Source: Herbidospora yilanensis (GTDB lineage Bacteria; Actinomycetota; Actinomycetes; Streptosporangiales; Streptosporangiaceae). From it: a stretch of 64,000 nt of DNA. Both the position numbers and the translations under genes were made by a program. Location: positions 124,001 through 188,000 of the forward strand of contig NZ_BBXE01000014.1 of the NCBI RefSeq assembly GCF_001570565.1, read 5' to 3'. Positions 23,933 to 34,718 of this stretch are shown piece by piece. Under the pieces are notes generated by a model, which was not told where the DNA came from, made no database searches, and worked only from the letters and a program-made list of their open reading frames with translations. Position 1 is the first letter of the stretch, and the number at the start of each line of letters is the position of its first letter.

Positions 23933-24466
23933 ATGCCTGTCGTGGTGCTGATCGGCCCGCCGGGGTCCGGCAAGTCGACCACCGGCGAGTTCCTGGCCGA
24001 ACGCCTCGGCGTCGGCTTCCGCGACACCGACGCCGACGTCGAGCAGGTCGCGGGCAAGCCGATCGGCGACATCTTCGTCGAAGACGGCGAAGAGGCCTTC
24101 CGCGCGCTTGAGGCCGCGGCCGTCCGGGCCGCCCTCGACGAGCACGAGGGCGTGCTGGCGCTCGGCGGCGGCGCCATCCTCGACCCGGCCACGCGCGAAC
24201 TGCTCGCCGGCCACACCGTGGTCTACCTGAAGGTCGGCCTCGACCAGGCGGTCAGGCGCGTCGGCCTGGCCTCGGCCCGCCCGCTGCTGGTCCTCAACCC
24301 GCGCAGCCAGCTCCGCAAGCTGATGGAGGAACGCCGCCCGCTCTACGAGGGCCTCGCGGTCCTCACCGTCGCCACCGACGACCTGGAGGCCGACGTGGTG
24401 GCCGACGCTGTGGCCGACGCTGTGGCCGACCAGATCCGGGCCGAGCCGAAGCCGGAGTCCGAGTGA
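23933..24466 (+). CDS. aroK: Shikimate kinase
   Basis: Phosphorylates shikimate at O3 with ATP (177 aa). P-loop GPPGSGKST at residues ~8-16; DTDADVE is the shikimate-binding Dx[11 protein letters not shown] and the lid sequence near [16 protein letters not shown] complete the fold. GGGGGAG ribosome-binding site 5 nt upstream of ATG. Near the C-terminus a 12-bp unit (GTGGCCGACGCT) is repeated almost three times (24398-24430), giving [11 protein letters not shown]. The stop overlaps the aroB start as GTGA. Confidence 0.96.
24398..24430 (+). repeat. Short 12-bp tandem repeat inside aroK
   Basis: 2.75 copies of GTGGCCGACGCT that extend the C-terminal helix of shikimate kinase. Probably slippage-derived length variation, outside the catalytic core. 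Confidence 0.8.
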
Positions 24467-25545
24467 CCGTCACCCGCATCCCCGTCTTCGGCGACAGCCC
24501 CTACGACGTCGTCGTCGGCACCGGCGTCCTGGGCGAACTGCCCGGCCTGGTCGGCGAGAAGGCCCGCACGGTCGCCGTCGTCCGCCCGGTCAGCCTGCCC
24601 GAGCTCGCCGGCCCGGTGACGGGCGTGCTGGAGAAGGCCGGCTACGACGTGCTGGACATCCCGGTGCCCGACGCCGAGGCGGCCAAGGACGTCCACGTGT
24701 TGTCGTCGCTCTGGTCGGCGTTCGGGCGCCACGGCATGACCCGGACCGACGTCGTCGTGGGCGTCGGCGGTGGGGCCACCACCGACCTGGCCGGGTTCGC
24801 GGCCGCCACGTGGCTGCGCGGGGTGCGGGTCGTCCAGGTCCCGACGACGCTGCTGGCCATGGTCGACGCCGCCGTCGGCGGCAAGACCGGCATCAACACC
24901 CCCGAGGGCAAGAACCTGGTCGGGTCGTTCCACCCGCCGGCGGGCGTCCTGTGCGACCTCGCGACGCTGGTGGGCGTGCCGCGCGACGACTACGTCGCCG
25001 GGCTGGCCGAGACGATCAAGGGCGGGTTCATCGCCGACCCCGAGATCCTGCGGCTGATCGAGGAAGACCCCGACGCCGCCCGCCACCCCGAGGGCGCCCA
25101 CACCCGCGAGCTGATTGAGCGCAAGATCCGGGTCAAGGCCGACGTCGTCGGCGCCGACCTGAAGGAGAGCGGGCTGCGCGAGATCCTCAACTACGGCCAC
25201 ACCCTGGCCCACGCCATCGAGCGGGTCGAGAACTACACCGTCCGCCACGGCGAGGCGGTCGCGATCGGCCTCGTCTACGCCGCCGAGCTCGGCCGCCTGT
25301 CCGGCCGGGCCGACCTGGTGGCGCGCACCCGTTCGATTCTGACCTCGGTCGGTCTGCCCACGGTTTACCGTGAAGACGCCTGGCCCCGGTTGCGTGAGCA
25401 CATGAAGATCGACAAGAAGGCGCGGGGGGCCAAGCTCCGGTTCGTCGTGCTCGACGCGCTGGCCGAGCCGTCCCGGCTCGAAGACCCGTCCGAGGAGTTG
25501 CTGGAGGCCGCCTACCGGGCGGTGAGCGGAGGCCCCCATGCGTGA
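24463..25545 (+). CDS. aroB: 3-dehydroquinate synthase
   Basis: NAD- and metal-dependent cyclisation of DAHP to 3-dehydroquinate (360 aa), second step of the shikimate pathway. Signatures are [40 protein letters not shown] and the metal-site region [12 protein letters not shown]. Complete and normal length. GTG start overlaps the aroK stop by 4 bp. The 3' end overlaps aroQ by 8 bp, so aroK-aroB-aroQ are translationally coupled. Confidence 0.97.
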
Positions 25546-25966
25546 CGTCCTGGTGCTGAACGGCCCCAACCTGGGCCGGCTGGGCACCCGCGAACCCGAC
25601 GTCTACGGCGCCACCACGTTCAAAGACCTGGTGCTGATCTGCGAGACCGCCGGTCGCGACCTGGGCCTGGCGGTCGAGGTGCGGCAGACCGACGACGAGG
25701 CCGAGATGGTGCGCTGGATCCACGGGGCCGCCGACTCCCGCACCCCCGTGATCCTCAACCCGGCGGCGTTCACCCACTACAGCTACGCGCTGCGCGACGC
25801 GCTCGCCCAGCGCACCGCGCCGCTGATCGAGGTGCACATCTCCAACCCGGCCGCCCGGGAGGAGTTCCGCCACACCTCGGTCGTGGCGGCCGTCGCCAAC
25901 GGCACGATCGCCGGTTTCGGCGTGCAGTCCTATGTCCTGGCCTTGCGAGCCATCGCGGAGATGTGA
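25538..25966 (+). CDS. aroQ: Type II 3-dehydroquinate dehydratase
   Basis: Converts 3-dehydroquinate to 3-dehydroshikimate (142 aa, dodecameric type II enzyme). The family start [21 protein letters not shown] carries the catalytic lid arginine, [16 protein letters not shown] the substrate loop and [17 protein letters not shown] the catalytic histidine region. Overlaps aroB by 8 bp and is followed after 1 nt by the SGNH hydrolase, so transcription likely continues. Confidence 0.96.
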
Positions 25967-25967
25967 G

Positions 25968-26720
25968 ATGTACGGGTCGTTCGTCGCCCTCGGCGACAGT
26001 TTCACCGAGGGCCTCAGCGACCCGGGCGTGAACGGTTCCTATCGTGGCTGGGCCGACCGCGTGGCCGAGACCCTGGCGAGTCAGAACCCCTCCTTCGTGT
26101 ACGCCAACCTCGCGGTCCGCGGCCGCCTGCTCGACCAGGTGGTGGCCGAGCAGGTGCCGAGGGCGATCGAGATGCGCCCCGACCTGGTCAGCTTCTGCGC
26201 CGGCGGCAACGACCTGCTGCGTCCCGGCAGCGACCCCGACAAGATGGCGAAGACCTTCGCCGGCGCGGTCAGGGCGCTGCGCGAGACCGGCGCCGACGTG
26301 ATCGTCTTCACCGGCGTCGACCCGCGCGACACCCCGATCATGCGCCGCGCCCGCGGCACCTTCGCGACCTACTACCTGCACGTCCGCTCGATCGCCGACC
26401 TCTACGGCTGCCGCCTGGTCGACCAGTGGTCGATGCAGGGCCTGCGCGACTGGCGGGCCTGGAGCGACGACCGCCTCCACATGAACGAGCACGGCCACCG
26501 TCTGGTCGCCGCCAAGGTGCTCGACGTGCTGGGCGTACCGGGCCAGGAATGGCGGTTCACCTGGCCGCCCCGCGACAAGGTCGACCCCCGGGTGAAGCGC
26601 CGCGAAGACGCCGAGTGGTTGCGCGAACACCTGGCCCCGTGGGTGCTGCGACGGTTGCGCGGGAGGTCGTCCGGAGACAACATCGCCCCGAAACGCCCTG
26701 ATTTGTCGCCTTTCGACTAA
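25968..26720 (+). CDS. SGNH/GDSL-family hydrolase
   Basis: Serine esterase of the SGNH fold (250 aa). Block I is FVALGDSFTEG with the nucleophile Ser, block III is GGNDLLRPG, and block V is DRLHMNEHGH with catalytic Asp and His. No signal peptide, so cytoplasmic. Start ATG 25968 has GGAG 7 nt upstream and lies 1 nt after the aroQ stop. The substrate is unknown; members include acyl esterases and polysaccharide deacetylases. Confidence 0.92.
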   Translation: MYGSFVALGDSFTEGLSDPGVNGSYRGWADRVAETLASQNPSFVYANLAVRGRLLDQVVAEQVPRAIEMRPDLVSFCAGGNDLLRPGSDPDKMAKTFAGAVRALRETGADVIVFTGVDPRDTPIMRRARGTFATYYLHVRSIADLYGCRLVDQWSMQGLRDWRAWSDDRLHMNEHGHRLVAAKVLDVLGVPGQEWRFTWPPRDKVDPRVKRREDAEWLREHLAPWVLRRLRGRSSGDNIAPKRPDLSPFD

Positions 26721-26754
26721 TTTGGGCCGCTCTTGAGGTGCACTGTCCGCTTTC

Positions 26755-26772
26755 CGGGGAGGGGGATCCCCG
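26755..26772 (+). promoter_or_regulatory. Small hairpin directly before a ribosome-binding site
   Basis: Stem CGGGGA/TCCCCG with a 6-nt loop, ending next to AAGGAGG (26773-26779) of the following gene. It could limit ribosome access or end upstream transcription; a 6-bp stem in GC-rich DNA is weak evidence. Confidence 0.3.
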
Positions 26773-26785
26773 AAGGAGGACAGTG

Positions 26786-27160
26786 ATGAAGCCAAGTCAG
26801 GCCAAACTCGCGGTGGGCATCGCCCTCGGCTACTACTTCGGCCGCAACCACAAGCTCGCACTGGCGACCGCCGTCGCCGTCGGAGGTCTCGCCGGCGCGC
26901 TCCGGCCCAAGAGCCTGCTGGGCAAGGGCCTCAAGAGCCTCGGCTCGCCCGAACTGGAAGAACTCGCCGGGAAGCTGCAGACCGACTTCATGGAGGTCGG
27001 CCGCGCCGCCGCCACCGCGGCGACCACCGGCCCGATCAACCAGCTCAGCGACCGCATCCACGACAAGGCGGAGCGCCTGCGCAGCCCGCTCGGCACCAAG
27101 ACCGCCGAGAAGACGTCCGAGAAGACCCCCGACACGACCTCCACCGAGGAGGACTCATGA
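26786..27160 (+). CDS. Small YtxH-like protein, first gene of the 11-mer operon
   Basis: A 124-aa protein I cannot assign firmly. Residues ~7-40 are weakly hydrophobic (LAVGIALGYYFGRNHKLALA...), like the membrane-associated start of YtxH-type proteins. The middle is amphipathic helix and the C-terminus is a Lys/Glu/Thr tail. Strong AAGGAGG ribosome-binding site 6 nt upstream. Its stop overlaps the SRPBCC gene as ATGA. A small membrane-associated protein before an SRPBCC protein recalls gvpY-gvpZ of streptomycete gas-vesicle clusters, but no gvpA or other gvp gene is here. Confidence 0.75.
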   Translation: MKPSQAKLAVGIALGYYFGRNHKLALATAVAVGGLAGALRPKSLLGKGLKSLGSPELEELAGKLQTDFMEVGRAAATAATTGPINQLSDRIHDKAERLRSPLGTKTAEKTSEKTPDTTSTEEDS

Positions 27161-28173
27161 CGGAAACCAAGACGGCGTCACCGCTCGGCAGACTGGGCAG
27201 AGAGGTCGGCGGCATGATCGGCGCGGCCGGCAAACGCGGCGCCTCCAAGCTCACCGGCAAGGTCACCGGGAAGATCAAGGGCAAGGTCGGCGACCTCACC
27301 GACCGCCTCACCGAATACGCCACCGGCGAGAAGAGCGGTCTCAGCGACCTGGGCTTCGGGGAGCAGCGCAAGGAGCAGGGTGGCGGCGAGGAGAAGAAGG
27401 AGGGCTTCTTCAAGCGCCTCGGGCACGGCGTGAAGGGCGTCACCGAACTGGTCAAGGCCTTCACCGGCAAGGGCGGCAAGGGCAAGGGCAACCGGAAGGT
27501 CACCAACATCGTCGAGTCGATCGACATCGGCGCGCCGCTCCAGGTCGTCTACAACCAGTGGACGCAGTTCGAGGAGTTCCCGTCCTTCATGAAGAAGGTC
27601 GAACGCGTCAGCCAGGACGAGGACACCAAGCTGACGTGGAAGGCCCAGGTCTTCTGGTCCCACCGCACCTGGCAGGCCGACATCATCGACCAGGTCCCCG
27701 ACGAGCACATCATCTGGCGCTCCCATGGGGCGAAGGGCCACGTCGACGGCTCGGTCACCTTCAGCGGCCTGGCGCCGAACCTGACCCGGGTGCTGGTCGT
27801 GCTGGAATACCACCCGCAGGGCCTGTTCGAGAAGACGGGCAACATCTGGCGCGCCCAGGGCCGCCGCGCACGGCTGGAACTGAAACACTTCCGCCGCCAG
27901 GTGATGAACCAGACCCTCCTGCGCCCCGACGACGTCCAGGGCTGGCGCGGCGAGATCCACGACGGCGAGGTCACTTCCGAGAAGCCGCCCGACGAGGAGC
28001 GGGAGACTCCCGCGGAGGAGCAGGCGACGGAGGCCCCCGAGGCACCCCCGCCCGGTTCGGGAGAGGAGCCCGAGGCGCCGGAGGAGGGAGAAGAGACGGC
28101 CGAACCGGAGGAGAGCGAGGACCACGAGGACGAGGAGAGAGTGCCCGAGGGCCGGGTGAGCGCACGTGGCTGA
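27157..28173 (+). CDS. SRPBCC-fold protein with basic head and acidic tail
   Basis: 338 aa in three parts. Residues 1-~108 are basic and flexible (many Lys and Gly). Residues ~110-240 form a cyclase/dehydrase-type SRPBCC domain (IVESIDIGAPLQVVYNQWTQ, then FPSFMKKVERV), a fold that binds lipids or other hydrophobic ligands. Residues ~255-338 are a Glu/Pro-rich acidic tail. Start overlaps the previous stop by 4 bp and the end overlaps the next gene by 8 bp. It is probably the ligand-binding partner of the membrane and repeat proteins beside it; enzyme activity is unlikely. Confidence 0.85.
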   Translation: MTETKTASPLGRLGREVGGMIGAAGKRGASKLTGKVTGKIKGKVGDLTDRLTEYATGEKSGLSDLGFGEQRKEQGGGEEKKEGFFKRLGHGVKGVTELVKAFTGKGGKGKGNRKVTNIVESIDIGAPLQVVYNQWTQFEEFPSFMKKVERVSQDEDTKLTWKAQVFWSHRTWQADIIDQVPDEHIIWRSHGAKGHVDGSVTFSGLAPNLTRVLVVLEYHPQGLFEKTGNIWRAQGRRARLELKHFRRQVMNQTLLRPDDVQGWRGEIHDGEVTSEKPPDEERETPAEEQATEAPEAPPPGSGEEPEAPEEGEETAEPEESEDHEDEERVPEGRVSARG

Positions 28174-30139
28174 CGAGGACCCCGACGTCTACCTCGACGT
28201 ACCGAATCTCAGCGTCGACGAGATCACCCTCCGGGTCGCCGACCTCAAGGCCCGCGTCAGCGTCAGCGCCGAGGTCCTGGACCTGCTGAAACTCAACGTC
28301 GGAGCGGACGTGTCCCTGGGCGAGGTCGACCTGGGCATCAAGGGCGTCCAGGCCCAGGCCCTGCTGAAGGTCCGCCTGGACAACGTCGCCAGAATCGTCG
28401 GCGACGTCCTGCAGACCCTCGACCACAACCCGCAGATCCTCGAGAACCTGACCAGAGGCCTCGGCAACGCGACGGAGGCCATCGGCGGCGGCGCGGGCCA
28501 GGCCGTCGGCGAAATCGGCAAGGGCGCCGGCAGCGCCGTCAGCGACGTGGGCGCAGGCGCGGGCCACGCGGTCCGCGACGTGGGCTCGGGCGCCGGGGAA
28601 GCCGTCAGCGACGTCGGCAAGGGCGCGGGCCACGCGGTCGGCGAGGTCGGCGAAGGCGCCGGCGCGGCGGTGAGTGACGTCGGTGAGGGCGCTGGTCATG
28701 CGGTCGGCGAGGTCGGTGAGGGTGCCGGCGCGGCGGTGAGTGACGTTGGTGAAGGTGCTGGTCATGCGGTCGGCGAGGTGGGTGAGGGCGCTGGTGCATC
28801 CGTCAGCGACGTGGGTGAGGGTGCCGGCGCGGCGGTGAGTGACGTTGGTGAGGGCGCGGGCCATGCGGTCGGCGAGGTCGGTGAAGGTGCCGGTGCGGCG
28901 GTCGGCGACGTGGGCGAAGGTGCCGGCGGGGCGGTCGGTGATGTCGGCGCGGGCACCGGGAAGGCGACCGAGAGCGTCGGTGGGGGAGCGGGCCAGGCTG
29001 CGAGCCAGGTCGGCGAAGGCGCAGGAAGGGCGACCGAAAGGGCCGCGGCCGAGGGCGCCGGGAAGGCCACCGAAACGGTTGGCGCTGGAGCGGGGGAGGC
29101 TGCTGGTGAAGGTACCCGGCAGGCCGCCGAGCATGGCGATTCCGGTGGTGGCCTGGCTCCCGACGAGGCCGGCGAGGCTGAACGCCGGCGTGACGAAGGC
29201 GAAGAAACCGACCGGGCAGGTCGGCCTGGCCCGGCCTCCGGCGAAGGAAGCGTGCTCACCGGCACTGTGGTCGAGGACCAGCAGCGCTCTGCTGAGAGCG
29301 TTTCCCGCCCGCCGGTCAGGCGCACGAGCAAGACGGAACCGGCCGGTGGTGGGCAGGAAGGCCGAACGTCAAAGGCAGGAGAAGAGGTCGGCGCCGAGAG
29401 ATCCAAAAGCGGCGGCCAGGCGGAGGGTCCAAGCGCAGAAGGCCGAGCTGCGACGGCGAAAGGAGAAGGCGGAGCCGAGGGGCGGCAAGGCGGAGGCCAG
29501 GAGGGTGAGCCAGCAGCAGAAGGCCTGGATGAGACGCCACGACCAGGAGGCCAGGCTGAGAAGACGACGGATGAGGGCCAGGCCGAACGACTGACGGATG
29601 AAGGCACCGAAAAACCGCAGGGTGCGGCGGGGCCCCCGGAATCGACCGATGAGGCGTCAGCTCCAGAGTCGGCGGATGAGAGCCAAGCGGGGGAGCCGGA
29701 AGCTGAAGGTGAGGCCGCAGAGTCGCAGGTCGATGCTGAGACGGAGAGCCCGCAAGACGGAATGGGGGCTCCGGAGTCGGCGGGTGAGAGCCAAGTCGAG
29801 GAGCCGGAAGCCGGCGGCGAGGCCGGAAAGCCGCAAGTCGAAGATCAGACGGAGAGCCCGAAGGGCGGGGCGAAGGCCCCCGAGTCGGCGGGTGAGGGCC
29901 AGGCCGCCGAGCCGGAAGCCGAGGGAGAGGCCGGTGAAAGCCCAGCCGGGAAGCCAGAACATGAGGGTCGAACCCCGAAGCGCAAAGGCAAGGATCACGC
30001 CGGCGAGAAAGCCGACCATTGGCGGCGCGAGAGGCCCGATCGGGCCGGTCAGACGCTCGGTGGTGCGTTGAGGGAGTTGCGTCACGCCGCGTTGCTGGCC
30101 GGAATGCGGCGGCTCGGCAAGCTGGGCAGGCCCCCGTGA
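28166..30139 (+). CDS. Large 11-residue-repeat protein (GEGAGxAVxxV type)
   Basis: 657 aa, unrecognised architecture. Residues 1-~100 form a folded N-terminal domain (PDVYLDVPNLSVDEITLRVA...). From residue 107 sixteen 11-residue units follow in perfect register to 282, consensus GEGAGxAVxxV, alternating GHAVGEV and AAVSDV, with three decayed units to ~316. Residues ~317-600 are acidic and low-complexity, with a 36-residue repeat at 499, 535 and 571. The C-terminus is a basic helix (RELRHAALLAGMRRLGKLG). Eleven-residue amphipathic repeats occur in synucleins, LEA proteins and perilipins and bind membranes or lipid surfaces, which is the inferred role. GTG start overlaps the SRPBCC gene. Confidence 0.8.
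   Translation: MADEDPDVYLDVPNLSVDEITLRVADLKARVSVSAEVLDLLKLNVGADVSLGEVDLGIKGVQAQALLKVRLDNVARIVGDVLQTLDHNPQILENLTRGLGNATEAIGGGAGQAVGEIGKGAGSAVSDVGAGAGHAVRDVGSGAGEAVSDVGKGAGHAVGEVGEGAGAAVSDVGEGAGHAVGEVGEGAGAAVSDVGEGAGHAVGEVGEGAGASVSDVGEGAGAAVSDVGEGAGHAVGEVGEGAGAAVGDVGEGAGGAVGDVGAGTGKATESVGGGAGQAASQVGEGAGRATERAAAEGAGKATETVGAGAGEAAGEGTRQAAEHGDSGGGLAPDEAGEAERRRDEGEETDRAGRPGPASGEGSVLTGTVVEDQQRSAESVSRPPVRRTSKTEPAGGGQEGRTSKAGEEVGAERSKSGGQAEGPSAEGRAATAKGEGGAEGRQGGGQEGEPAAEGLDETPRPGGQAEKTTDEGQAERLTDEGTEKPQGAAGPPESTDEASAPESADESQAGEPEAEGEAAESQVDAETESPQDGMGAPESAGESQVEEPEAGGEAGKPQVEDQTESPKGGAKAPESAGEGQAAEPEAEGEAGESPAGKPEHEGRTPKRKGKDHAGEKADHWRRERPDRAGQTLGGALRELRHAALLAGMRRLGKLGRPP
28484..29113 (+). repeat. 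33-bp tandem repeat array (11-residue units)
   Basis: Sixteen in-frame 33-bp units from 28484 to 29011 and three degenerate units to 29113. Neighbouring units pair into a 66-bp higher-order repeat in the middle (28616-28945), where copies are nearly identical in DNA, which points to recent expansion. Confidence 0.9.
29660..29953 (+). repeat. 108-bp direct repeat (36-residue units)
   Basis: Units start at 29660, 29768 and 29876, each opening with APESA and containing EPEA and GEA motifs; the third is partial. Purine-rich and less GC-biased than the surrounding genes. Confidence 0.85.
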
Positions 30140-30378
30140 GCGGGCGGCCCACCGACGACGACATCGCGCGGGCCGACATCGTGGTCGCCGCCGAGGTCGA
30201 GGCCGAAGAACTCGAAGTCAGAATCGCACCCGGCCACAGGGTCGAGTTCCACGGCGAAGACCAGGCCGCGTCGGGCACCGACCGGGAGAACCTTCCCGAA
30301 AAGGTCACCGAGGGTGAACGATATCGTTCGGTCCGTATCAGCTATGCGCTGGAAGCCCGCGCCGCCGGGCCGGGGTGA
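30136..30378 (+). CDS. Small acidic protein, last gene of the 11-mer operon
   Basis: 80 aa, unrecognised. Acidic N-terminal helix (DDDIARADIVVAAEVEAEELEV) followed by a short beta-like region. GTG start overlaps the previous stop as GTGA, so it belongs to the operon. Its end is ~40 bp before the MOSC gene, which has its own promoter. Confidence 0.65.
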   Translation: MSGRPTDDDIARADIVVAAEVEAEELEVRIAPGHRVEFHGEDQAASGTDRENLPEKVTEGERYRSVRISYALEARAAGPG

Positions 30379-30390
30379 TTCCCGCGTGAT

Positions 30391-30408
30391 CGAGAGAGCG
30401 CTTTCTCG
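30391..30408. promoter_or_regulatory. LacI-type palindrome at the MOSC gene promoter
   Basis: An 18-bp near-perfect palindrome, CGAGANAGCGCTNTCTCG, with one mismatched pair and the central AGCGCT typical of LacI-family operators. It ends next to the -10 hexamer TACAGT, where a repressor would block RNA polymerase. Confidence 0.55.
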
Positions 30409-30414
30409 TACAGT
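30409..30414 (+). promoter_or_regulatory. -10 element TACAGT of a leaderless promoter
   Basis: Hexamer 6 nt before ATG 30421, adjacent to the palindrome at 30391-30408. Confidence 0.6.
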
Positions 30415-30420
30415 CGACTG

Positions 30421-31248
30421 ATGAAGCTCTCCGATATCCGGATCTACCCCGTCAAGTCGGTGACCGGTCTCCGACTCGACCACGCCAAGGTCCTGCCGTG
30501 GGGCCTCGAAGGCGACCGCCGGTGGGCCGTCGTCGATGACAAGGGGGACGGCTACTGGTCGGGGGAGAACCCCGAATATCTCGCCGTCAAGGCCGTCAAC
30601 ACCCCGGAGGGCGGCCTGATCCTCAACGCTCCGGGGCTCGACGAGCTCAAGGTCCCCCCGGCCGACGGGCCGCTCGTGCCCGTCTACTTCCACGGGCTCG
30701 ACGAGGCCATGCTCGCCCACGACGACGCCCATGAATGGTTCACGCGGCTCCTGGGCAAACCGGCCAGACTCGTCTACCTCGACGACCCCAACCGGCGGCA
30801 CATCGTCGACTACCACGGCGGGCTGCCGGGCGAGGTGGTCAGCTTCGCCTGGGACGCCCCGCTGCTCCTGGTCACCCGCGACTCCCTGGCCCGTCTCGAC
30901 GACTGGATCGCCGAGGGCGCCGTCGAGCGCCGGGAGGCCACGCCGCGGCGGCTCGACGTCGCCCGCTTCCGGCCGAGTGTGGTCGTCGAGGGGTTCGCGC
31001 CGTTCGAGGAGGACACCTGGACGTCGGTGCGCATCGGCGACGTCGACTTCCGCGTCTCCGAGCTCTGCGACCGCTGCATCGTCACCCTCTGGGACCCCGA
31101 CACGCGGGAGCGCGGCAAGGAACCCCTGCGCACGCTGGCCAGACACCGCCGGTGGGACGGCAAGACCTGGTTCGGCATCCGGCTGGTCCCGAAGAACCTC
31201 GGCGAACTCCGGGTCGGTGACCCGGTCGTCCCGGTCGTCAGGACGTGA
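30421..31248 (+). CDS. MOSC-domain protein
   Basis: Molybdenum-cofactor-binding MOSC protein (275 aa) with the N-terminal MOSC beta-barrel domain (IYPVKSVTGLRLD, GLEGDRRWAVVD) and the C-terminal MOSC domain. The sequence SELCDRCIVTLWDPDTRERG contains the conserved cysteine that binds molybdenum in mARC/YcbX relatives, which reduce N-hydroxylated compounds or move sulfur. No signal peptide. ATG is the predicted transcription start. Its 3' end overlaps the helicase gene by 11 bp tail to tail. It may be LacI-regulated. Confidence 0.93.
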   Translation: MKLSDIRIYPVKSVTGLRLDHAKVLPWGLEGDRRWAVVDDKGDGYWSGENPEYLAVKAVNTPEGGLILNAPGLDELKVPPADGPLVPVYFHGLDEAMLAHDDAHEWFTRLLGKPARLVYLDDPNRRHIVDYHGGLPGEVVSFAWDAPLLLVTRDSLARLDDWIAEGAVERREATPRRLDVARFRPSVVVEGFAPFEEDTWTSVRIGDVDFRVSELCDRCIVTLWDPDTRERGKEPLRTLARHRRWDGKTWFGIRLVPKNLGELRVGDPVVPVVRT

Positions 31249-33202
31249 GCCGCTTCAGCGCCGCCCGGACCACCGCGGGGTCGGTCGTCCGCCAGTAGGG
31301 CGGCAGCGAGTTCAGCAGGAAGCCGCTGTAACGCGCTGTCGCCAGGCGGGGGTCGAGGACCGCGATCACGCCCCGGTCGTCCATCGACCGCAGCAGCCGG
31401 CCGGCGCCCTGGGCCAGCAGCAGCGCGGCGTGGGTGGCGGCGACCGACATGAAGCCGTTGCCGCCCTTGGCCGCCACATGTCGCTGCCGCGAGGAGGTCA
31501 GCGGGTCGTCGGGGCGGGGGAACGGGATGCGGTCGATGATGACGCAGGTCAGCGACGGGCCGGGCACGTCGACGCCCTGCCACAACGACAGGGTGCCGAA
31601 CAGGCAGGTCTCGGGGTCGGCGGCGAACTGCTTCACCAGGAGCGACGTCGAGTCGTCGCCCTGGCACAGCAGCGGCACCGACAACCGGTCGCGCAGCGCC
31701 TCGGTCGCCGCCTTGGCGGCGCGCATCGAGGAGAACAACCCGAGGGTCCGGCCGCCGGCCGCCTCGACGAGCTCGACCATCTCCTGGATGTAGGCGTCGG
31801 GCAGGCCGTCGCGGCCGGGCTGGGGGAGGTGCTTGGCGACGTAGAGGATGCCGGAGCGGGCGTGGTCGAACGGGGAGCCGACGTCGAGGCCGCTCCAGTC
31901 GTCGTTCTTGCCCAGGCCCCACTGGGCGGCCATGCCCTCGAAGGTGCCGCCGAGCGCCAGGGTGGCGGAGGTCAGCACGACCGTGCGGTCGCCGAACAGC
32001 TTGTCGCGGAGCATGCCGCCCACCGACAGGGGCGCGACCCGCAGCGTCGGCGGGACCCGGCCGGAACCCTCCTCCAGCCACACCACCTCAGCCCGGTCGA
32101 CCTCGGAGTCGGCGCCGAACGCGTCGAGCATGCGCTGGGCGGTGTCGTGGACCTCGTCGAGCGCCGTGAACGCCGCCTTCTTCGCCCCGGCGCCCTCGGG
32201 GTCGTCCTTGTCGGCGTTGCGGGAGCCGAGGGCGGTGATGCAGGCGAAGGCCGCGTCGCGCACGAGCGCCAGGGTCAGCCCGAGCGACTGCGGCAGGTCG
32301 TCGACCCGGCCGGCGGGGGCGGCGGCGAGGAGGGAGCCGAGGTCTTCGGCCGCCTCCTGGAGCCGGTCGGCCAGGCCCTGTTCGATCAGGCGGCCGGCGC
32401 GGCGGGCGGCCAGCCCGGCCGTGGACTCCGACAACTCGTCGGTGACCACCGACGTGACCCGGTCGACCAGCTCGTGGGCCTCGTCGACGACCACGACGTC
32501 GTGTTCGGGGAGGACCTGGAAGTCCTCCATCGCGTCGATGGCCAGCAGGGCGTGGTTGGTCACCACCACGTCGGACAGGCCGGCCCGCTCACGGGCCAGC
32601 TCGGCGAAGCACTCGGCCCCGCTGGGGCAGCGCTGGGCGCCCAGGCACTCGCGCGCCGACACCGAGAACTGCCGCCAGGCGATCTCGCTCACCCCCGGCA
32701 CGAGCTCGTCACGGTCGCCGGTCTCGGTCTCTTCGGCCCATTCCTGGATGCGCTGGACCATGCGGCCCGTGGCGCTCACCTCACGGGGGTCGAAAAGCTG
32801 ATCCTGTTCGTCTTCGGGCATGCCGACCGTTGACTTGTATCGGCACAGATAGTTGCGACGGCCCTTAAGAATGGCGAATTCAGGTCGATGCGGGAGTTCT
32901 TTTTCGAGGGCGTCGGCGAGCCTCGGAAGATCGCGGTCGACGAGCTGGCGCTGTAGCGCGATGGTCGCCGTGGAGACGACGACGGCGCTGTCGGAGATCG
33001 CCGCGTGGCGGATCGCGGGCACCAGATAGGCCAGCGACTTGCCGGTGCCGGTGCCCGCCTGAACTGCGAGATGGTCGCCCTTGTCGAGCGCCTTCTGGAC
33101 CGCCGTGGCCATCGTGACCTGCCCGGGTCTCTCGGCGCCGCCGAGCTCCCTGACGGCGATCGTGAGCAGCTCTTCTACAGTTGGCAGGTCGGATTTCGGC
33201 AC
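31238..33202 (-). CDS. DinG/YoaA-type iron-sulfur DNA helicase
   Basis: XPD-like superfamily 2 helicase (654 aa). Walker A is AGTGTGKS near residue 50 and the DEAH box is VVVVDEAHEL. Four cysteines in the FeS domain are visible: NYLCR, then ARECLGAQRC and GAECF. Motifs near the C-terminus (LWQGVDVPG, QGAGRLLR) complete the helicase core. The N-terminal exonuclease domain of Gram-positive DinG is absent. It unwinds 5'-tailed DNA or R-loops in repair. GTG start is probably leaderless, with TAGCCT 6 nt upstream. Confidence 0.93.
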   Translation of the reverse strand: MPKSDLPTVEELLTIAVRELGGAERPGQVTMATAVQKALDKGDHLAVQAGTGTGKSLAYLVPAIRHAAISDSAVVVSTATIALQRQLVDRDLPRLADALEKELPHRPEFAILKGRRNYLCRYKSTVGMPEDEQDQLFDPREVSATGRMVQRIQEWAEETETGDRDELVPGVSEIAWRQFSVSARECLGAQRCPSGAECFAELARERAGLSDVVVTNHALLAIDAMEDFQVLPEHDVVVVDEAHELVDRVTSVVTDELSESTAGLAARRAGRLIEQGLADRLQEAAEDLGSLLAAAPAGRVDDLPQSLGLTLALVRDAAFACITALGSRNADKDDPEGAGAKKAAFTALDEVHDTAQRMLDAFGADSEVDRAEVVWLEEGSGRVPPTLRVAPLSVGGMLRDKLFGDRTVVLTSATLALGGTFEGMAAQWGLGKNDDWSGLDVGSPFDHARSGILYVAKHLPQPGRDGLPDAYIQEMVELVEAAGGRTLGLFSSMRAAKAATEALRDRLSVPLLCQGDDSTSLLVKQFAADPETCLFGTLSLWQGVDVPGPSLTCVIIDRIPFPRPDDPLTSSRQRHVAAKGGNGFMSVAATHAALLLAQGAGRLLRSMDDRGVIAVLDPRLATARYSGFLLNSLPPYWRTTDPAVVRAALKRLTS

Positions 33203-33208
33203 CCCGAA

Positions 33209-33214
33209 AGGCTA
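33209..33214 (-). promoter_or_regulatory. -10 element TAGCCT of a leaderless promoter
   Basis: Minus-strand hexamer 6 nt before GTG 33202 of the helicase gene; no ribosome-binding site. Confidence 0.55.
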
Positions 33215-33440
33215 GCGCCCACGACCGACAAGAGCGTGCTGTTATCGGACCGTGACCGCCGGACCACATCCCGGAGTTCGGGGGTGCGAAGGGGAGTTCC
33301 CGTGGCACACTGGCCACACGGGGCGCTGGGTCAAAGACGATCCACCTCGGGCAAACGGGGGTAACCCGACCAATCCGAGACGGGCGTTTCTGTAGGGTTT
33401 CTTGAGGTCGAGTGGACGGATAAGGGCAGGTAAAGGCACT

Positions 33441-34718
33441 ATGTCTGTCATGTCGGAAGTCGTCCCGCTGCCATCCTTCGGCGAGGTTTTCTTTGACGCC
33501 CGAGGTCAGGACCGCGTTCTGCGGGTGACCTGGCACGAGGGCACCCTCGTTCTCAGTCTGTGGCGGGGCGAGATGTGCACCGCCAGTTTCCGCATGCCCA
33601 TGGACGACGTCGGCCGCCTTCTGGAGACCCTCCAGATCGGCTACGCCGAGGCCACCGGGCAGCCGACGGCCGGCCCCGACCAGCCCGGCACGGGCCCCTT
33701 CCCGGCGCCCGATCTCGGCGACTACCCGGGTGAATATCCCGGCACGGGGCAGTACTCGCGCCCGCCCGCCCCCGAGCAGCAGCCCATGGCGCCGCAGCAG
33801 CCGTTCCCGCCCTTCCCGCAGGAACAGCAGCCCATGCCGGTCGGCTACGACCCCGGCCCCTACCCCGAGGCCACCCCCGCCTACGGCCAGCCCGCGCCCG
33901 CGGCCCCGGCCGCGCTCGGCCCCAACGACGTGCTGGTCGCCCGGGGCGCCCCCGCGCGCGACCGCCTCGTCGCCGTCGACCAGCAGGCCCCGCCGCGTGA
34001 GCGGCCGCGCCGCCAGGCCCCGCAGCCCGACTTCCCGCCCTTCGAGGGGCAGGTCCCGGCCGAGCCGGTCTACCAGTTCCCGTCCCCGATCCCGGGACGC
34101 CCGGCCTACCAGTTCGACCCCGAGCCCGACGCCGAGGCGGCCCAGCACCAGCAGCAGCACTTCCCGGCCGACGTCTACCAGGCCGACGCGCCGGTCTACC
34201 AGACCGGGAGCTACCAGCCCCAGCAGATCCCGCAGCCGCCGATGCCGCCGCAGATGCCCCAGCAGCAGATGCCTCAGCAGCAGATGCCTCAGCAGCAGAT
34301 GCCTCAGCAGCAGATGCCTCAGCAGCAGATGCCTCAGCAGCAGATGCCGCAGCAGGCCTATCAGCAGTTCCCGCCGGAGCAGCGCCCCCACCTGGTCCAG
34401 GCGGCGCCGCCGTTCCCGCCGGAGCCGTTCGCGCAGGGCGATCCGCAGGCCTACCCGCAGGGCTACGCCCAGGGGGCCGTCTACTCCACCGACCCGTCGT
34501 TCCAGGTCCCGCCGGGGCAGCAGCAGTATCCGCCGCAGCAGTACGCCGACCCCCGCTACCAGCAGCAGCCGCCGCCGCAGCAGGGCGTCGACCCCAACGA
34601 CCCGCTGGGGCTCGGCCCGGTCTCGCGGCCCTACGTGGAGGGGCAGCAGCCGCCCATGTACTCCACGGGCGAGCGGGTCCGTCCCGAGGGCGCCGACGAA
34701 AGGCGTGACTGGAGCTAG
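33441..34718 (+). CDS. Protein with small N-terminal domain and Gln/Pro-rich disordered tail
   Basis: 425 aa. Residues ~5-70 form a compact domain (VVPLPSFGEVFFDARGQDRV, RGEMCTASFRMPMDDVGRL) seen in other actinobacteria without known function. The rest is disordered and rich in Pro, Gln and Tyr, including six exact QQQMP units at residues ~274-303. Such tails often mediate phase separation or protein binding. ATG with AAAGG 5 nt upstream; a TAGGGT element at 33393-33398 predicts a ~36-nt leader. It ends 28 nt before the antiporter gene. Confidence 0.8.
   Translation: MSVMSEVVPLPSFGEVFFDARGQDRVLRVTWHEGTLVLSLWRGEMCTASFRMPMDDVGRLLETLQIGYAEATGQPTAGPDQPGTGPFPAPDLGDYPGEYPGTGQYSRPPAPEQQPMAPQQPFPPFPQEQQPMPVGYDPGPYPEATPAYGQPAPAAPAALGPNDVLVARGAPARDRLVAVDQQAPPRERPRRQAPQPDFPPFEGQVPAEPVYQFPSPIPGRPAYQFDPEPDAEAAQHQQQHFPADVYQADAPVYQTGSYQPQQIPQPPMPPQMPQQQMPQQQMPQQQMPQQQMPQQQMPQQQMPQQAYQQFPPEQRPHLVQAAPPFPPEPFAQGDPQAYPQGYAQGAVYSTDPSFQVPPGQQQYPPQQYADPRYQQQPPPQQGVDPNDPLGLGPVSRPYVEGQQPPMYSTGERVRPEGADERRDWS
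34260..34349 (+). repeat. 15-bp tandem repeat (QQQMP)
   Basis: Six consecutive copies of CAGCAGCAGATGCCT (the last ends in G). Near-identical copies point to recent slippage and probable length variation among strains. Confidence 0.95.

Follow-up and report, generated by a model that had tools for sequence, protein, structure and literature searches.

The window, by which we mean the whole analysed stretch of 64,000 nucleotides from Herbidospora yilanensis, carries on its forward strand four genes that we named Y, Z, R and P (the product of P is also called p80), which are listed with their features in Table 1. The four genes are coupled by overlaps of 4, 8 and 4 bps, as the preliminary description of this DNA had stated: the open reading frames are present, and three other Herbidospora loci (L005, L006 and L007) carry the four genes too, in unchanged order and with identical overlaps.

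Comparing the window with these three loci, dN/dS was below 1 for the parts compared, namely 0.12-0.16 for the head of R, 0.18-0.32 for P, 0.29-0.44 for Z and 0.28-0.72 for Y, the R head being the slowest-evolving part among those compared. The R proteins differ in length within the genus, and the basic C-terminal tail of R could be recognised in 6 of the 6 Herbidospora-type relatives compared, being most diverged in L005. The gap before Y (26720-26785) is short, well conserved in six aligned Herbidospora-type sequences and devoid of a SigB-type promoter.

Table 1. Position of the genes, domains and signals of the operon in the window.
Feature	Position	Strand	Basis
Ribosome-binding-type sequence AAGGAGG ahead of the ATG of gene Y	26773..26779	+	read directly
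Gene Y: small protein of the GvpY family, 124 aa	26786..27160	+	relatives precede gvpZ in gvp clusters
Gene Y: basic amphipathic stretch after a moderately hydrophobic N-terminus	within 26786..27160	+	helix and hydropathy scores
Gene Z: protein of the GvpZ family, 338 aa	27157..28173	+	PF03364 and relatives
Gene Z, layout: N-terminal residues 1-111 (net +10), SRPBCC domain, acidic tail (net -20)	within 27157..28173	+	charges
SRPBCC domain of Z (Polyketide_cyc, PF03364), residues 124-244	27526..27888	+	E 8e-19
Gene R: repeat protein, 657 aa	28166..30139	+	ORF
Conserved head domain of R, about 90-105 residues, no family found	28166..28480	+	relatives; dN/dS 0.12-0.16
Sixteen in-register 11-residue units of R, G-x-G-A-G-x-A-V-x-[DE]-V	28484..29011	+	lag identity
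Acidic low-complexity region of R, residues 317-620, net -39	29114..30025	+	charge count
Basic amphipathic C-terminal tail of R, residues 621-657, net +6	30026..30136	+	charge count
Gene P (p80): acidic protein of 80 aa, net -8, core [ST]xRENLP..V..G..YR	30136..30378	+	relatives, charge

The four proteins and the 11-residue repeat of R

Regarding the family assignments, the SRPBCC lipid-type fold that had been proposed for the second gene is confirmed, Z matching PF03364 of Pfam with 68.6 bits against a cut-off of 23.4 (E 8e-19). The YtxH-like nature proposed for Y was rejected, since Y matched 0 Pfam families at E <= 1 and since the list of 24 families obtained with 20 relatives of Y does not include YtxH. 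No Pfam or NCBIfam family scored above its cut-off for the Y, R or P of the window, the best score for R being that of Apolipoprotein (E 0.022, 14.9 bits versus a cut-off of 90), and nothing credible was obtained for their family members, that is for 34 heads searched against NCBIfam and for 26 P and 20 Y proteins searched against Pfam. We also rejected, by profile, a solved PDB structure as a relative of the head (best E 0.31) or of p80 (best E 1.2). Three further ideas were rejected, namely that the head and p80 are homologous (hhalign probability of 0.2), that the head came from phages, as neither phages nor viral contigs gave a match, and that the operon is a defence system, as the four proteins of the window had 0 PADLOC matches at E <= 0.01. 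Judged by these searches, the head and p80 look like two new protein families.

The sixteen 11-residue units previously described in R are there, in exact register and with no indel. The identity of the repeat at lag 11 was 0.69, whereas 1000 shufflings of its residues gave no more than 0.33 at any lag from 2 to 44. It was higher still at lag 22 (0.77), and the DNA identity was 0.75 at lag 66 versus 0.69 at lag 33, both of which are a sign of 22-residue higher-order units. Furthermore, the repeat has an amphipathic period, as had been suggested: compared with 1000 column permutations, its hydrophobic moment at 98.2 degrees ranked within the highest 0.4% on the Eisenberg scale and the highest 0.8% on the Fauchere-Pliska scale, and the conservation profile fits an 11/3 helix as well. 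In this profile, which was built by phase only and whose 57 tails were preselected for an 11-residue period, the seven lowest-entropy positions 1, 3, 4, 5, 7, 8 and 11 (mainly G, G, A, G, A, V and V) make up one arc of the 11/3 helix (196 to 33 degrees); positions 2, 6, 9 and 10, which vary most, make up the other (65 to 164 degrees). Val is nearly the only large apolar residue of the repeat, and the small-residue face of the consensus unit has GxxxG spacing. The net charge per 11-mer averaged -1.17 (range -2.7 to 0) and was positive in 0 of 56 proteins, these being the proteins in which at least five units fit a pattern with Gly required at positions 1 and 3 and with limits on other positions.

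We surveyed the repeat in 95 unique R proteins, six of which were excluded because their tails were too short. Among the remaining 89, 56 showed a dominant period of 11 or a multiple of it together with a lag-11 identity of at least 0.35, and 33 did not, five of them peaking at lag 7. L145, L151 and some others peak at lag 19, yet they contain 11-residue units. In L203, L215, L268 and L271 the tails of the head proteins peak at a 7-residue period, as if a coiled coil had replaced the repeat.

The 11-residue consensus and its amphipathic phase recur in the family of the window (f1), in a Streptomyces-like family (f3) and in a family outside the class of the window (f19), that is, in two classes. 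The label of f3 is inferred from L163, L164, L165 and L166, which match named Streptomyces loci at 92, 85, 81 and 70% DNA identity, these best matches being taken among L005-L084 and one of the four being named 'Actinobacteria bacterium OV320' (L055). Such a recurrence argues against the view that the head and P do the work, for instance as a binding pair, and that the repeat is a spacer with no function of its own. This view would agree with the slow evolution of the head and with tails that differ in length and type, some being heptad-like or having no clear repeat; nevertheless, we consider it very unlikely.

Structure prediction, which had been suggested for both the head and the repeat, gave a helical repeat in the best model and no usable head. 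In this AlphaFold model, which was based on five sequences, residues 89-199 form one unbroken helix, the final 60 residues having pLDDT block means of 71-88. The other four models averaged a pLDDT of 33-43, so that this is one good model of five. The head obtained a pLDDT of about 30 and p80 a mean of 47, each from five sequences.

The preliminary description had proposed that the operon coats a membrane surface or lipid bodies, in the manner of perilipins or phasins. The amphipathic 11/3 helix, the lipid-type fold of Z and the PspA protein present in 5 of 13 f19 loci would agree with this, and so would the basic amphipathic stretches, which are found in Y, at the N-terminus of Z (+10 over 111 residues) and in the C-terminal tail of R (+6), and not in the repeat. 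However, membrane binders of the synuclein or perilipin type have 11-residue repeats that form an 11/3 helix and whose 11-mers are net basic, and the finding that the repeat of R is never net positive speaks against a synuclein-like coating. In addition, the most hydrophobic 19-residue window of Y scores just 1.18, the usual threshold for a membrane helix being 1.6, and therefore does not indicate such a helix, and no phasin or perilipin profile of Pfam or NCBIfam scored above its cut-off for the four window proteins. The proposal is weakened also by the fact that the repeat has hardly any large apolar residue other than Val, and we now regard it as unlikely.

The same small-residue face, with its GxxxG spacing, could serve a different end, in that R might polymerise through Gly, Ala and Val and be placed by its partners, thus giving a structural scaffold or a positioned organelle. 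In f19, the vicinity of R and P includes DnaJ-like, E3-binding and coil proteins and, in 5 of 13 loci, a ParA-type ATPase, which would suit this possibility. Nevertheless, ParA is limited to those 5 of 13 loci, and by reading there is no such neighbour in the region 24000-33500 of the window, so we think it decidedly unlikely.

Occurrence of the unit with and without gas-vesicle genes

The search of other actinobacterial genomes confirmed that a conserved multi-gene unit exists. A query with the full-length repeat protein was biased by its low complexity, and the later R counts use the head alone. The head of R was found in 24 of the 396 genomes of the phylum sample and P in 14 of the 396. Regarding the single families, the head occurs in 44 of 220 f1 genomes, including all the seven members of the own genus that were listed (among them G428, G544 and G525, whose strains are those of L007, L006 and L005, respectively), in 22 of 200 f3 genomes and in 20 of 39 f19 genomes. 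Of 72,556 plasmid records, 4 had it, two of them from Deinococcus.

We classified 62 neighbourhoods of R from f1 and f3, counting both R copies of G577 apart and leaving aside the R-bearing genomes G000, G441, G474, G489 and G511. P follows R in 42 of these neighbourhoods, Z stands directly upstream of R in 23, and Y, Z and R occur in order in 16, ten of which also have P. Homologues without the repeat or without the neighbours, which had been taken in advance as a sign against a conserved system, are thus found alongside complete units, given that our criterion for an 11-residue period selected 56 of 89 R proteins, p80 in 42 of 62 neighbourhoods and Z directly upstream in 23 of 62. When the predicted proteins of 61 loci were clustered, five groups were present in at least seven loci; by reading, these were an antisense-frame artefact, R, Z, P and an ABC-transporter-like protein (10 loci).

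Other arrangements were observed outside these neighbourhoods. In the f19 loci L134 (6523-14560), L135, L136 and L142-L151, R and P lie beside E3-binding-domain, DnaJ-like and coil proteins, and the ParA-type ATPase and the PspA protein occur in five of the 13 loci each; one of the E3-binding-domain proteins shares a segment with the C-terminus of R, and a second, repeat-less paralogue of the head is often near R. Plasmids of Deinococcus deserti and D. taeanensis (L181 9389-10720 and L182 9704-10711) encode the head after what by eye appears to be a signal peptide. These Deinococcus proteins have no clear 11-residue repeats and no p80 match, and their C-terminal part resembles that of the f19 proteins. 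Finally, in L140 (17608-18739; G261, another family) a Z-type gene adjoins a p80 gene, with no R in the stretch examined.

The order of the first two genes had been said to recall gvpY-gvpZ, and indeed Y and Z belong to these two families. The names are used for SCO6503-SCO6504 of a gvp cluster of S. coelicolor, where the gene order is given as gvpG-gvpY-gvpZ-gvpJ (PMC5839063); GvpY and GvpZ are also names of Serratia proteins of unknown function (PMC4982088), which does not imply a kinship to the actinobacterial ones. In our scan for Z, at least 571 of at least 598 pattern-matched stretches encode a Z relative. Among the best 80, which were kept, gvpA was present in 71 loci, and in most of these the pair lies among gvpF, gvpG, gvpL and gvpK. 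R-linked and gvp-linked copies are intermingled in a tree built from 92 Z domains, and the Z of the window lies inside the mixed part. The label R changes 9 times in this tree, which was made by a quick method with 92 of 122 Z rows after thinning the gvp-linked ones, and at least four of the changes are forced by well-supported branches. Therefore, the Y-Z pair appears to have changed its context several times.

The statement that no gvpA is present holds for the window and not for its genome. The window is on contig C14, whereas all the GvpA-type genes of the genome, three in number, are in a gvp cluster on contig C43, which places the Y-Z pair of the window outside that cluster. This cluster (L004 5074-8372) has gvpA-, F-, G-, O-, L-, S/J- and K-type genes, and there was no match to gvpY or gvpZ in the 13-kb stretch of C43 that was examined.

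In 31 of the 66 R-bearing genomes of f1 and f3, a relative of Z scoring at least 150 bits is found no more than 3 kb away from R. Such a relative is present in 42 of the 43 R-bearing genomes that have gvpA, and near R in only 19 of them. Of the 23 R-bearing genomes in which gvpA was not found, 13 keep it, 12 of these within 3 kb of R, 8 are without any Z match at E <= 1e-15, and the other two carry weaker relatives only. Z thus tracks gvpA strongly and is optional for R and P. The high count of Z in gvpA-bearing genomes, in only 19 of which it is near R, speaks against a tight partnership of Z and R; where gvpA is missing, Z is kept, if at all, mostly beside R.

As for R itself, gvpA was found in 29 of 44 R-bearing f1 genomes and in 101 of 176 other f1 genomes, so there is no association (Fisher p 0.39), and 15 of the 44 have no gvpA. 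In f3, 14 of the 22 R-bearing genomes have gvpA and 8 lack it. GvpA, which had been a point to look for elsewhere, is present in the genome of the window and in 43 of the 66 R-bearing genomes of f1 and f3, and was not found in the other 23. The 16 loci with Y, Z and R in order include 9 from gvpA-less genomes, and single-contig assemblies make up four of these nine. The phylum sample has 31 gvpA-positive genomes, none of which belongs to f19; 38 of the 39 f19 genomes come from this sample. A role in gas vesicles only was rejected on this distribution of gvpA across R-bearing genomes, and the data support that the R-P unit does not depend on gas vesicles.

It could still be argued that R is an actinobacterial stand-in for GvpC which stiffens the vesicle wall, and that the four genes are an accessory set whose Y and Z moved out of the gvp cluster. 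The own genome has gvpA in a gvp stretch without Y-Z, which are in the operon of the window instead, the seven listed genomes of the genus carry both gvpA and R, and Z is in 42 of 43 gvpA-bearing R genomes. GvpC likewise has helical repeats, although these are of 33 residues. However, R occurs without gvpA in 15 of 44 (f1) and 8 of 22 (f3) genomes, the f19 genomes are missing from the 31 gvpA-positive ones, and no gvp gene was seen in the R neighbourhoods L238-L297. Moreover, no window protein matched the GvpC profile at E <= 1, and the repeat showed no 33-residue unit, its period being 11 with a higher order of 22. We therefore find this explanation most improbable.

Promoters, proposed function and known systems

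Published SigB-type promoters of S. coelicolor share the form GTTT-N14..17-GGGTA (PMC8346170). A search of both strands of 60 loci, 2.1 Mb in total, gave 13 matches to this motif, of which 11 precede R on the strand of R. In the 500 bases before the head it was found in 11 of 60 upstream regions, versus a mean of 0.2 for 79 permuted motifs, the runner-up of which was found in 6 regions, a number consistent with the same sites read one base later. Distances were measured from the start of the head rather than from a start codon of R, and the site of L272 falls inside the longest ORF. The 11 sites are all in f1, in five genera and six of them in one genus, and being so confined they represent fewer than 11 independent events. 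One f19 locus (L149) has a strict site, and none was found before R in 20 loci of f3. In the window there is no strict site on either strand of the 64 kb and no relaxed one in 26386-26800, so a stress link of this operon would follow by homology only.

Among soil actinobacteria, the conserved unit occurs in some relatives in genomes without the gene of the gas-vesicle shell and in others behind a stress-type promoter, and it therefore resembles an independent system for protection or scaffolding. Thus, we tentatively propose, as a reading that is plausible rather than probable, that the operon encodes a gas-vesicle-independent and probably stress-induced protein system which acts as a LEA-like shield or scaffold and shares the Y-Z pair with gvp clusters. 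Its core would be R, with a head and an acidic tail of amphipathic helical 11-residue repeats, together with its small partner P, and Y-Z would be a module held in common with actinobacterial gas-vesicle clusters through repeated exchange. The head, probably in contact with P, would be the ordered part, and the repeat tail would be loose in growing cells. We infer that under changed water or ion conditions the tail folds into long 11/3 helices with a face of Gly, Ala and Val, which may then pack on itself or on hydrophobic or partly unfolded surfaces to give the protective shield or the scaffold. Y and Z, with their basic amphipathic stretches and the lipid-type pocket of Z, could tether the acidic R to a membrane or to another apolar surface.

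A wider version of this proposal, which we hold to be rather doubtful, is that R and P constitute an undescribed stress-response system that builds a coat or scaffold of 11/3 helices in two actinobacterial classes and, with the head but without P, in Deinococcus. In such a case the gvp genes of soil actinomycetes, whose vesicles are said never to have been found, would share Y-Z with it because both serve the response to osmotic stress or drying and not buoyancy. Osmotic stress has been proposed before as the reason for the gvp genes of soil actinomycetes (PMC5839063, PMC2631018). Among open-licence papers, judged by title and the start of the abstract, we found none on the four-gene unit or on R. 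The operon separates gvpY and gvpZ from the shell protein and links both to a widespread unnamed protein; therefore Y-Z or R-P in species without gvpA offer a direct route to learning what these genes do.

Among the known systems, the closest in gene content is the actinobacterial gvpY-gvpZ pair, since Y and Z are of the same families and the Z tree mixes both contexts; however, pairs of the window type stand with R and P, partly in genomes without gvpA. R resembles GvpC in being a repeat protein linked to genes named gvp, and differs from it by its period of 11/22, the missing profile match and its occurrence without gvpA. With synuclein and perilipin it shares the geometry of the 11/3 helix, whereas its repeat is acidic, Gly-rich and net positive in none of the 56 proteins. 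Judged by profile, R is not a GvpC nor is Y a YtxH, and judged by consensus R is not a group 3 LEA protein. Nevertheless, like the latter (e.g. DosH of Deinococcus radiodurans), R has tandem amphipathic 11-mers, and the SigB-type promoter of some relatives (11 of 60 loci, none in the window) suggests a stress link. In the 57 tails, the repeat of R is without the two conserved positively charged positions of the LEA consensus as given in PMC10295645; instead, R is Gly-rich and acidic, and it comes with a conserved head and a partner gene.
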